From Actinomycetota bacterium (lineage in GTDB: Bacteria > Actinomycetota > Acidimicrobiia > Acidimicrobiales > Ilumatobacteraceae): a stretch of 33,325 nucleotides of DNA. Positions 5,169-8,563 of this stretch are shown in pieces. How positions within the stretch are numbered: position 1 is the first letter of the stretch; each line of letters starts with the position of its first letter. A program made the position numbers and the translations under genes. Below the pieces are notes generated by a model. It had not been told where the DNA came from. It saw nothing but the letters and a program-made list of their open reading frames with translations, and made no database searches. Location of the stretch: contig VGAK01000019.1 in the NCBI GenBank assembly GCA_016870775.1, positions 1 to 33,325 on the forward strand. Reading direction: 5' to 3'.

Positions 5169-5978
5169 TCAGGCCGTGAACTGACCCCGGGCTCGACCCT
5201 CGCCGGGTGGACCGGCGAACGCCTGGGCGATCGACATCCACTCCCGCGCGGCCGCGCCGGTGATCTCGAGACCGCAATCGTCGACGTGGCGTCTCTGCGT
5301 CACGGCGAGACAGAAGCCGAGCGCATCTCCCGCGATGCGCTCGCTCCCACCCTCTTCACCCCATGTCCAGACCCCGCCATCGGGTGCGGCGAGATCCACC
5401 CGCACCTCGACCGGGGGCATCTCCATGTTGTTGGCCCCGTAGGCGAAGGGACGTGCCCGCACACCGATGTGTGCGATGTGCCGCAGTCTGCGTGTGGGGG
5501 TGCGCGACACCCCGAGCGCGTCCACGATGTCCTGACCGTGTGCCCAGGTCTCCATCAGTCGGGCCGTGATCATCGAGGTCGCCGACATCGACGGCCCGTA
5601 CCACGGGCACTTGGCCGAGGGGTCGATGTTCGCGGCGGCCGCCACGAGGTCACTCGCACCCCTGAGCCACCACGCGCGCAGTTCTGCGTGGTCGCGCCCC
5701 CGCTCGGCGACATGCACATCGACACCGGAGAAGAGCCGTTCACGATCGGCGAGGAAGCGCTCGGCATCGGTGATCGACCAGAGGCAACGGCGGTCGATCA
5801 GCCCGAGATGGACGATCTGGTCCGAGATGCACCAACCGCGTGCGGGTGTGTCGAGCGAGAAGTCGCCACTGCTCAGCGGGCCGAGCACCGAGTCGAGATC
5901 GGCCACCTCGGCTGCGAAATCGGAGACGATGGCATCGAGACGCTCGCGCGCCTCACCGGGGGTTCCCATGGGCTTCAT
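5169..5978 (-). CDS. TIGR03084-like protein, DinB/mycothiol-dependent isomerase fold
   Basis: Related to the DinB-type metal-binding fold of mycothiol-dependent maleylpyruvate isomerase. The 269-residue protein has the helical bundle signatures of that group: W.ISDQIVHLGLID near 48-61 (first metal histidine) and METWAHGQDIVDALG near 144-158 (second histidine in HGQD). The C-terminal ~90 residues form a separate region with a GVWTWG motif. The exact reaction is unknown for this subfamily. The ATG at 5978 is preceded 6 nt upstream by CACCTT, a weaker match to the local -10 pattern; the ATG at 5969 is an alternative. It faces the PIG-L gene, and both could relate to mycothiol. Confidence 0.82.
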   Translation of the reverse strand: MKPMGTPGEARERLDAIVSDFAAEVADLDSVLGPLSSGDFSLDTPARGWCISDQIVHLGLIDRRCLWSITDAERFLADRERLFSGVDVHVAERGRDHAELRAWWLRGASDLVAAAANIDPSAKCPWYGPSMSATSMITARLMETWAHGQDIVDALGVSRTPTRRLRHIAHIGVRARPFAYGANNMEMPPVEVRVDLAAPDGGVWTWGEEGGSERIAGDALGFCLAVTQRRHVDDCGLEITGAAAREWMSIAQAFAGPPGEGRARGQFTA

Positions 5979-6015
5979 TCTTGCAAGGTGACCGATCGAT
6001 GGAGCGGGGCTCCCC

Positions 6016-6053
6016 GGGAAAAAGAAGAGCGGGGGGCTTTCGCCCCCCGCTCT
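6016..6053 (-). terminator. Intrinsic terminator after the HU / Lys-rich unit
   Basis: A perfect 12-bp stem (6026-6037 with 6042-6053) closed by a GAAA tetraloop on the minus strand is followed by TCTTTTTCC. This is a classical Rho-independent terminator for transcription coming from HU and the Lys-rich gene. It is the strongest terminator in the window. Confidence 0.9.
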
Positions 6054-6103
6054 GACACTTCCGAACCAAGTGGTTCTGTTTTGCTTGAAGGTGCGAAGAG
6101 GGC

Positions 6104-6268
6104 TCAGCCCTTCTTCTTGCGGGCCTTCTTGCGCTTCGGAGCGGCCTTCTTGGCCGCTGCCTTCTTCTTTGTTGCCTTCTTCTTCTTGGCTGGGGCCTTC
6201 TTGGCCGCTGCCTTCTTCTTGCGCTTCGGAGCGGCCTTCTTGGCCGCTGCCTTCTTCTTTGCTGCCAC
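6104..6268 (-). CDS. Histone H1-like Lys/Ala-rich protein (detached HupB-type tail)
   Basis: A 54-residue protein made almost only of Lys, Ala, Pro and Arg (VAAKKK..., with two copies of AAAKKAAPKRKK). It resembles the C-terminal tails of mycobacterial HupB and Streptomyces HupS, and eukaryotic H1 tails, which bind DNA without folding. It has no HU domain of its own. A GTG start at 6268 is preceded by GAGG with 8-nt spacing. HU ends 27 nt upstream in the same frame, and the nine intervening codons contain no stop, so the two would form one HupB-like protein if the single TAA were read through. A strong terminator follows. Independent translation is the simpler reading, but no family comparison could be made here. 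Confidence 0.8.
   Translation of the reverse strand: MAAKKKAAAKKAAPKRKKKAAAKKAPAKKKKATKKKAAAKKAAPKRKKARKKKG
6125..6261. repeat. Two 47-bp direct repeats, 90 bp apart
   Basis: Positions 6125-6171 and 6215-6261 are identical and lie exactly 30 codons apart inside the Lys-rich gene. They encode the two AAAKKAAPKRKK units. The arrangement suggests internal duplication and makes the gene prone to length change by slippage. Confidence 0.85.
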
Positions 6269-6295
6269 TTGAGTTTCCTCTCGTTGGGTAAGTGG

Positions 6296-6580
6296 TTACT
6301 TACGGTTTGGATTCAGCGAGGCCTTGAGTGTGGAACTCGCTGTGAACTTCATCGCGGTGGAGGCGGGCACCGAGACGGTCGCACCCGTTTGTGGGTTGCG
6401 ACCAGTGCGCGCCTTGCGTTGGGTGGTGCTGAACGCGCCGAAGCCCGGCCAGGCCACCTTTTCGCCCCTCTGAGTCGAGGCCACTACCAGGTCGAAGAAG
6501 GCATTCAGGGTTCGCTCGGCATCGGCCTTGCTGCACCCTGCTGACTTCGCCACCTCTTCGATGAGCTCTGATTTGGTCAT
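6296..6580 (-). CDS. hup: HU-type nucleoid DNA-binding protein
   Basis: Small dimeric DNA-bending protein of the nucleoid. The 94 residues have the whole HU fold: MTKSELIEEVAKSAGCSKADAE at the N-terminus, the GFGAF turn near 46-50, and the arm with R.GRNPQTGA near 58-66, which contains the proline that intercalates into DNA. The ATG at 6580 has GGGGGA about 9 nt upstream, and the long open frame upstream has no HU similarity. Actinobacterial HupB proteins normally continue into a Lys-rich tail; here the frame ends with TAA after NPNRK, and the tail is a separate downstream ORF. The stop lies in a 6-bp stem-loop (GTAAGT-AACC-ACTTAC). Confidence 0.95.
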   Translation of the reverse strand: MTKSELIEEVAKSAGCSKADAERTLNAFFDLVVASTQRGEKVAWPGFGAFSTTQRKARTGRNPQTGATVSVPASTAMKFTASSTLKASLNPNRK

Positions 6581-7144
6581 TTGTTGATCCCCCTGTTCCG
6601 GAGTGTCCCGATAAGTTGAGTATGTCCCGACGACGAATGCAAGCATTTCCGCGCGACGTTGGCGACGGGAGCACGCCACCACCACCGCGCGCCACTGCTG
6701 GCTCCTTGCGCAACCGAGCACCTGCACGTCGCCATCGTGCTCCGACTCGAGTCCGTGTGCGGTGCGTCCCCGTGCACGGGCACACCCCCGACCCACGGCG
6801 CTCGCTCGGCGCGAAATCCAATAACCACAAGGGTTTCCAACCTCGACGTGTCGCTGCTCGTCGGGGTCTGCCCCCACGCGTGCGGTGGGCGCGGTGCGTC
6901 GACGCACGCCACACATGCTCGGTGAGGTGCGTGCTCGGCGGTGTCGCCACGACGCGCGAACGACCCGGTCGGGGCCCAAAAAATTTTCCAAAAAATTTCC
7001 CGCTGGCACCCGGAATTTCTCCCCGGCACCCGAGTGGGCCTGTGGATGACCATCCACCCGGGGGGTGACCCGTGGATGGGATGATCTGGGCATTGATCGT
7101 TCGCGGCGAAAATCAGTGAGGCGACGTCTGCATCGGGAGGTGCG
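6581..7144. other. 564-bp gene-free region between HU and phoH-like gene
   Basis: No credible gene here: the open frames lack family features. It contains AATGC-AA-GCATT (6636-6647), a perfect 12-bp palindrome CCCGTGCACGGG (6769-6780), a perfect 14-bp palindrome GTGCGTCGACGCAC (6894-6907) and two A/T-tract repeats (AAAAAATTT units, 6978-6999). It also holds two GGCACCCG copies (7005 and 7025) and the inverted repeat GTGGATG-AC-CATCCAC (7042-7057), with a third GTGGATG at 7072. HU and phoH are transcribed outwards from it, so it must hold both promoters; I could not fix them. GGGAGG near 7136 is the phoH ribosome binding site. A structured RNA is possible but not recognised. Confidence 0.6.
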
Positions 7145-8563
7145 ATGACCGATGTCGTAGGGCGCGTGGACAGCGAAGGTCATCGGACCGATCACGCATC
7201 ATTCAGCCTCGCGACAGCCGCCAGTGCACCGGCCGGACCGGGCACCCGGACACGCATCGTGCTCGACACGTCGGTCCTCGTCGCAGACCCCGGGTGCTTC
7301 CATTCCTTCACCGGATGCGACGTCGTCATTCCCCTGACCGTCGTGGAGGAACTCGACGGGTTGAAGACCCGCTCCGACGATGTGGGTCGTGCGGCACGCA
7401 CCGCCCTGCGCACGATCGAGGACCTCCGCCGCCGCGCCGGGGGCTCGATCCACACCCCCGTGGCCCTCGGTCCGGAGCCCGAGAGCGCGACCGTGCACAT
7501 CGAGGTGAACGGCATCCAGAAGCACCTCCTCGTGGAGAACGGGCTCGACCCCGAGGTGCCCGACAACCGGATCATCGGGGCGGCGCTCGGGCAGTCGCTC
7601 CGGTCCCCCACCCGCATGGTCTCAAACGACGCGGGGCTGCGCATCAAGGCCGCCCACCTGGGCCTGGAGGCCGCCGAGCACCAGCCAGTCGGCCGCACCG
7701 CGGCCACCCGCCAGATGGGGTGGTCGACCCTCGAGGTGTCGGCAGAGACGGTGAACGACCTCTACGACAAGGGAGAGGTCGGTGTCGCGCAGTTCGGCGC
7801 GGCGGGTCTCATGGTGAACGAGTTCGCCGTGGTGCGCTCGGGATCGCAGTCGGCACTCGTGCGCAGCATCGGCGACACCGCCGAGTTGCTCCCGGGTCAG
7901 TCCCCCGAGGCATGGGGCCTGCGGGCCAGGTCCAAGGAACAGCGGTTCGCCCTGGAGTTGCTCCTGGATCCCGCCGTCAGCGTGGTGGCCCTCGACGGCC
8001 GCGCAGGCACGGGCAAGACGGTTCTCGCCATCGCAGCCGGACTGGAGCAGGTGGTCGAGGCTCGCAACTACGAGCGGCTCGCCGTGTACAGACCCCTCGT
8101 GCCCGTGGGACGCGCCGACGTGGGTTTTCTCCCCGGCGGCCTCGACGAAAAACTCGACCCCTGGATGTCGGCGATCCACGATGCGATCGTCGCGCTCACC
8201 GACCAACGCTCCTCGCGCGACGCGAGGGGCTTGATCGACGATCTCTCCGCCCGTGGCCAACTCTCGATGGAGTCGGTGACTTTCCTGCGCGGACGCTCAC
8301 TGCACAGGCAGTTCGTGGTCGTCGACGAGGCCCAGAATCTCGAGCCCACCACGCTCAAGACCATCCTGACCCGGATCGGAGAGGGCACCAAGGTGGTCTT
8401 CACGGGCGACACCAGCCAGATCGACGCGCCCTACATGGGAGAGTCGAACAACGCCCTCGCGGTGCTGATCCATGCCTTCGCCGACCAGCACCTGTTCGGT
8501 CACATCACCCTCTCGTCGTGCGAGCGCAGCGAGGTCGCGAGCCTCGCGGCCGAGTTGCTCTGA
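7145..8563 (+). CDS. phoH2: PIN-PhoH fusion protein (PhoH2 type RNA helicase/RNase)
   Basis: Fuses an N-terminal PIN ribonuclease domain to a C-terminal PhoH ATPase; mycobacterial PhoH2 unwinds and cleaves RNA. In this 472-residue protein the PIN part (~37-180) starts with IVLDTSVLVADP, has the acidic VVEELD motif and a later DN..I acidic site and ND near 150-165. The PhoH part has Walker A GRAGTGKT near 284-291, VVVDEAQN (Walker B) near 391-398 and the FTGDTSQID motif near 418-426. The ATG at 7145 follows GGGAGG by 5 nt. The first ~35 residues are a flexible extension. I see no small antitoxin-like ORF just upstream, in contrast to the described mycobacterial phoAT-phoH2 locus. Confidence 0.93.
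   Translation: MTDVVGRVDSEGHRTDHASFSLATAASAPAGPGTRTRIVLDTSVLVADPGCFHSFTGCDVVIPLTVVEELDGLKTRSDDVGRAARTALRTIEDLRRRAGGSIHTPVALGPEPESATVHIEVNGIQKHLLVENGLDPEVPDNRIIGAALGQSLRSPTRMVSNDAGLRIKAAHLGLEAAEHQPVGRTAATRQMGWSTLEVSAETVNDLYDKGEVGVAQFGAAGLMVNEFAVVRSGSQSALVRSIGDTAELLPGQSPEAWGLRARSKEQRFALELLLDPAVSVVALDGRAGTGKTVLAIAAGLEQVVEARNYERLAVYRPLVPVGRADVGFLPGGLDEKLDPWMSAIHDAIVALTDQRSSRDARGLIDDLSARGQLSMESVTFLRGRSLHRQFVVVDEAQNLEPTTLKTILTRIGEGTKVVFTGDTSQIDAPYMGESNNALAVLIHAFADQHLFGHITLSSCERSEVASLAAELL

Follow-up and report, generated by a model that had tools for sequence, protein, structure and literature searches.

The analysed window, a 33,325-nt contig (C19) from a draft genome of 1.74 Mb that is ~80% complete, carries on its minus strand a gene for an HU-family DNA-binding protein followed by a gene for a free, Lys/Ala/Pro-rich, histone H1-like protein. 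Judged from the DNA and from its conservation in relatives, this co-transcribed pair is very probably a two-protein counterpart of HupB of mycobacteria and HupS of Streptomyces, with the production of both proteins, their joint transcription and their function predicted rather than observed. The in-frame TAA between the two coding regions, which the initial annotation had suspected of cutting a HupB-like protein in two, is on comparative grounds the ordinary end of the HU gene in an old HU and H1-like gene pair.

Layout of the HU-tail locus

The HU frame (6296..6580, minus strand; codons 6580-6299, TAA 6298-6296) encodes 94 residues without a C-terminal extension. Its membership in the HU/IHF family is documented by a match to PF00216 (E 3.9e-31, 107.6 bits with a cut-off of 22.4, profile positions 1-90 of 90) and by matches to HU/IHF structures in the PDB. 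It shares 85-88% identity with the best copies from the same genus, and 85% with the HU of the closest named relatives (L033, L034). A 27-nt linker of nine sense codons (PLTQREETQ; 6269..6295, minus strand) separates it from the tail gene (6104..6268, minus strand; GTG 6268-6266, TGA 6106-6104), which encodes 54 residues and is preceded by a GAGAGG that, by its sequence, resembles a Shine-Dalgarno site (6277..6282, minus strand). The unit ends in an intrinsic-terminator-like hairpin of 12 bp, ten of them G-C, with a TCTTTTT run (6026..6053, minus strand). The elements listed in the initial annotation, i.e. an HU of 94 residues, the TAA, nine codons, a Shine-Dalgarno motif with GTG and a 54-residue frame, are all found on the minus strand.

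We found neither a hairpin of at least 8 bp within the window's 27-nt linker nor another strong hairpin between the two frames. Rfam gave no match at gathering scores across 5900-7200, and a search for a sigma-70-like promoter at the locus found none. Downstream, the unit adjoins a gene for a Mycothiol maleylpyruvate isomerase N-terminal domain protein (PF11716; 5169-5978, minus strand); upstream, a gene for a PIN_4 plus PhoH-like protein (7145-8563, plus strand) diverges from HU at a distance of ~560 nt.

The stop had been described as lying inside a perfect stem-loop. The 6-bp stem (GTAAGT-AACC-ACTTAC; 6288..6303, minus strand) does exist, but it pairs just the first base of the TAA, and both A's lie in the loop. 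When truncated segments were folded, five of its pairs amounted to ~ -1.2 kcal/mol, and the 91-nt context shows no clear structure (z -1.61, with 14 of 200 shuffled versions folding equally well). The arms of the stem are identical in nine genus-level loci, which therefore offer no covariation; linkers from more distant relatives do not preserve them. We considered this hairpin as a device acting at the stop codon and rejected it as weak, confined to the genus level and devoid of covariation; it is probably not functional.

Conservation of two separate genes in the family

A search of 101 family genomes returned HU matches in 94, and 83 of these hold an HU of the window's type (E <= 2.8e-31); the remaining 18 had no match (seven) or weaker matches only (11). 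All 83 loci, together with three on named contigs that were added by similarity (L033-L035), form the family group of 86 loci that we examined. Applied to the 86, the rule identified 78 in which the HU gene ends in a stop and a distinct Lys-rich ORF follows. Among the eight rule-negative loci, two were counted as tailed by eye (L020, which runs into Ns, and L134, with a frame shift), three lie on contigs that end too early to be informative (L009, L017, L165), and in three the tail is truly absent (L114, L151, L162). At 80 of 83 informative loci, a distinct Lys-rich ORF thus comes after an HU that lacks a tail, and none of the 86 carries a fused tail, so that the continuous HupB in relatives that would have spoken for a broken gene was not encountered.

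Many family-group contigs terminate in or beside the tail gene (e.g. G001:C2:13, G013:C23:7, G026:C106:135). Such ends are expected if the repeats in these genes break short-read assemblies, and breaks of this kind may explain part of the genomes without an HU of this type.

The relative reading frame of the two genes is not maintained. Among the 78 loci, the tail ORF lies in frame 0, 1 or 2 relative to HU in 24, 28 and 26 cases, respectively; between members of the genus, a linker difference of 1 nt suffices to shift the tail frame (L006, L007, L034 vs L003, L004). As the tail occurs in all three frames, readthrough is not conserved, and the in-frame position of the window's tail amounts to about a one-in-three coincidence (24/78). 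The start region of the tail gene, on the other hand, is maintained while linker length and frame drift: an SD-like 4-mer precedes the start at all 49 family-group loci with a gap of at least 20 nt, whereas shuffling the linkers gave 6.8 such loci on average and 14 at most. In 23 of the 78 loci the HU-tail gap is 10 nt or less, suggesting coupled translation there.

These observations bear on the possibility that a point mutation or a base error divided a single HupB gene only recently, with readthrough perhaps still yielding a minor fused form. The window taken by itself could be read in this way, given that its tail is in frame and its nine-codon linker is open. However, genus-level copies keep the TAA, which is hence not an isolated base error, HU and tail differ in frame at 54 of the 78 loci, another stop interrupts the linker in ten of the 24 in-frame cases, and the SD-like motif is present at every start with room for it. 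We consider a recent split extremely improbable. The pattern of a kept stop, SD motif and start next to a drifting linker is the one that the initial annotation had named as a sign of two real proteins, and its alternative of a readthrough fusion is contradicted within the family group by the same frame and stop counts.

Hairpins point to a shared transcription unit. At least 8 bp of stem follow the tail gene at 61 of 63 loci, with 3.3 expected from shuffles, whereas no strong hairpin was seen between HU and tail at 55 loci, a comparison in which short linkers leave little power. When a T-run was also required, terminators were found after the tail at 41 of 63 loci and between the genes at none of 78. 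In the three tail-less loci (L114, L151, L162), a hairpin of 12-15 bp stands directly after HU. HU and tail thus form one apparent transcription unit. In two of the tail-less loci (L114, L151), a frame that by eye looks similar to the window's PF11716 gene lies directly downstream of HU. The idea that HU and tail are made at independent levels is unproven, because the genes appear to share a transcription unit and nearly touch in the 23 closely spaced loci. Across the sequences compared, the conserved order of HU stop, SD motif and start, Lys-rich ORF and hairpin is beyond what chance would produce.

We also weighed whether the tail ORF is spurious, the DNA being repetitive, or its RNA serving another role such as a leader or in mRNA stability, with no protein made. 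Its low-complexity repeats with direct copies would fit such an origin, as would the lack of any match of the window tail in Pfam, NCBIfam or the PDB. Among 12 close pairs of tail genes, however, differences fall at codon positions 1, 2 and 3 in 26, 27 and 113 cases, with 90 synonymous vs 31 non-synonymous codons, a pattern from which we conclude that the tail protein is under purifying selection. Furthermore, an SD motif with a start is found only in the Lys frame, while the other two frames over tail DNA contain 32 and 135 stops. A non-coding origin is accordingly very unlikely.

The family-group free ORFs, which had been picked as Lys-rich, consist of Ala (0.418), Lys (0.409) and Pro (0.096), with four acidic among 5588 residues; they thus share the Lys/Ala/Pro repeats and near-absence of acidic residues of HupB/HupS-type tails. 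The 63 complete tails range from 22 to 170 residues, and the window's gene contains direct repeats of 52 nt that are 98% identical, suggesting that tail length changes through the gain and loss of repeats. Together with the three tail-less loci, this variability indicates that the tail is not indispensable.

As a query of its own genome, the window tail matched itself and one further site at E 0.6. It also has no match, up to E 10, to the HC2 profile (PF07382, curated cut-off 40 bits). Four longer relatives scored 47.8 (L025) and 94.4 (L242) bits, passing the cut-off, and 24.2 (L163) and 25.6 (L191) bits, failing it. On another contig of the window's genome (G000:C1:92851-93234, minus strand), a Lys/Ala/Pro-rich stretch within a 1017-aa frame matches HC2 below the cut-off (E 7.2e-8), showing that other stretches of this composition exist in this genome. 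Across the order, 87 of 118 genomes match HC2 at E <= 0.001 and 38 score above the cut-off, with many sites per genome, often in long frames. HC2 was tried as a marker of free H1-like genes and rejected, since it tracks composition; it was not used for any count.

Distribution in the class and direction of change

Elsewhere in the order we examined 66 of the 99 non-family genomes with a match; by rule, their 66 loci comprise 25 fused, two free and 39 without a tail. Several order families (f5, f7, f9, f10, f14, f30, f45) combine a fused tail with a free H1-like gene downstream, and at L177 and L203 the HU lacks a tail while a free gene is present. In other orders of the class, which is probably Acidimicrobiia, the rule scored 21 of 37 loci as free, and inspection by eye added two (L247, L267); here an HU with 0-6 extra residues is followed after 49-95 nt by a protein of the MPPAKRR type. 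Altogether, we count 19 family groups within the class in which HU is followed by a free H1-like gene. When up to 900 nt of downstream sequence were scanned for Lys-rich frames, all 54 rows scored free or both were positive, and none of the 72 scored fused or none was. The phylum sample comprised 44 loci, two of them inside the class; among the 42 from elsewhere, none has a free gene after HU and seven have a fused tail. No free gene was found either at 77 further loci from mixed phyla with a few Actinomycetota (73 none, 3 fused, 1 cut).

To place these arrangements on the history of HU, we used a tree of 127 chosen rows, including 24 of the 86 family-group loci and 15 loci from the phylum sample; near-duplicates and some further rows were left out, and two rows that the first rule had called none (L195, L226) were scored as fused. 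The tree contains a supported clade of 74 rows (95/89) in three parts. One comprises 20 rows from other orders, all of them free; the second, clade B, has 21 rows (11 fused, 9 both, 1 free); and the third, which includes the window, has 33 rows (21 free, 9 none, 3 fused). Three other rows that were scored free or both (L176, L177, L267) fall outside this clade. Under a two-state Mk reconstruction, the base of the 74-row clade carries a free gene with P=1.000 and a fused tail with P=0.007, values that were similar after tips had been thinned by pruning, not rebuilding, the same tree (free 0.9998, fused 0.007), and that depend on one tree of 90 columns with 47 of 124 branches open.

It is conceivable that the free gene instead arose several times by fission of ancestral fused tails. 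Some Actinomycetota beyond the class do have fused tails (the seven of 42 loci above), 20 of the 21 rows of clade B are fused or both, and L167, L170 and L171 are fused as well. One of these, L167 (G112:C63), has another family code and is placed among the family-group rows; its HU is 70% identical to that of the window and has a fused 43-aa tail without a free gene, reflecting either re-fusion or transfer. The second HU of the window's genome is also fused: this paralogue (L002, G000:C17:38903-39166; 124 aa, 80.8 bits) has a short Lys/Ala/Pro tail and no free tail gene within the scanned sequence, and it groups on the tree with a fused HU from the order level (L226). The lineage therefore does not depend on the split arrangement alone. 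Repeated fission is nevertheless unlikely, given the reconstructed state at the base of the 74-row clade and the nine or more family-level groups that keep free tails only.

We conclude that the free gene is likely older than the fused tails in this HU clade, a result of the tree that also argues against a HupB cut by a single stop. Taken further, the pair would be an old operon for a two-protein HupB that was already present at the base of one HU clade in the class. Its tail would work in trans, the ratio of bender to tail could be set, tail length would be free to change through repeats without touching HU, and fused tails would be later or separate developments; we hold this extended account to have an even chance of being correct.

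Relation to known nucleoid proteins

In HupB and HupS, an HU core is joined to a PAKKA-type Lys/Ala/Pro tail of similar make-up, as described in the portions of PMC5683647 and PMC11229371 available to us. The window tail differs in being a separate gene with its own start, whose frame relative to HU is not kept; with the TAA and a separate start, and with no fusion in the family group, the pair is not the single polypeptide of HupB/HupS. Loss of the HupB tail is reported in the excerpted text of PMC11229371 to leave the protein without affinity for DNA and to make the nucleoid looser. An HU survey lists, in the part seen, Acidimicrobiia among the groups with tail-less HU only, class HU_acti_0 (PMC5683647). 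The window HU likewise has no extension, a likeness that does not imply membership in that clade. In contrast to the survey, some families of the class do have fused tails, and the accessible part of PMC5683647 mentions no downstream Lys-rich gene. The same paper reports lineages, Frankia and Streptosporangiales, whose HU_acti_C has hardly any extension.

Free H1-like proteins are also known from other bacteria. Hc2 of Chlamydia and its relatives in Bordetella, Burkholderia and Ralstonia are, according to the abstract of PMC2848022, free Lys/Ala-rich repeat proteins whose length follows repeat number. The free tails resemble them in this respect, and two of the four longer relatives pass the PF07382 cut-off, largely by composition; the window protein, however, lacks an HC2 match, and the new element is that the free protein is tied to an operon with HU. 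In Pseudomonas, AlgP and PhaF have H1-like C-terminal domains, whose disordered Lys/Pro/Ala repeats bind DNA (PMC9239181, extract). These tails are fused to other N-terminal domains and are neither free nor beside HU. In the open-access literature searched, we found no description of an HU gene paired with a free H1-like gene.

AlgP also bears on what the free protein does. As its similar KPAA tail positions polyphosphate granules (same extract of PMC9239181), the protein might act on polyphosphate or storage granules, or bind RNA or ribosomes, rather than condense the nucleoid with HU. We consider such a role improbable, because the gene shares a unit with HU and other lineages fuse the same kind of sequence to HU. 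We therefore favor a nucleoid function. The first gene would supply a tail-less HU that bends DNA, and the second a free, disordered and extremely basic Lys/Ala/Pro repeat protein. Both would be transcribed together up to the hairpin 3' of the second gene, and the tail would be translated from its own SD start, or via coupling where the genes nearly touch. The free tail would probably bind DNA electrostatically and help condense the nucleoid, the role of the fused tail in HupB/HupS, and may act together with HU.

If both products are indeed synthesized, the modular design of HupB, a bending core plus an H1-like tail, would be realized in two separable proteins, and these bacteria would provide a natural experiment on whether DNA compaction requires a tail joined to HU. 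Surveys based on HU sequences only would then score such bacteria as tail-less, although a tail is encoded next door.
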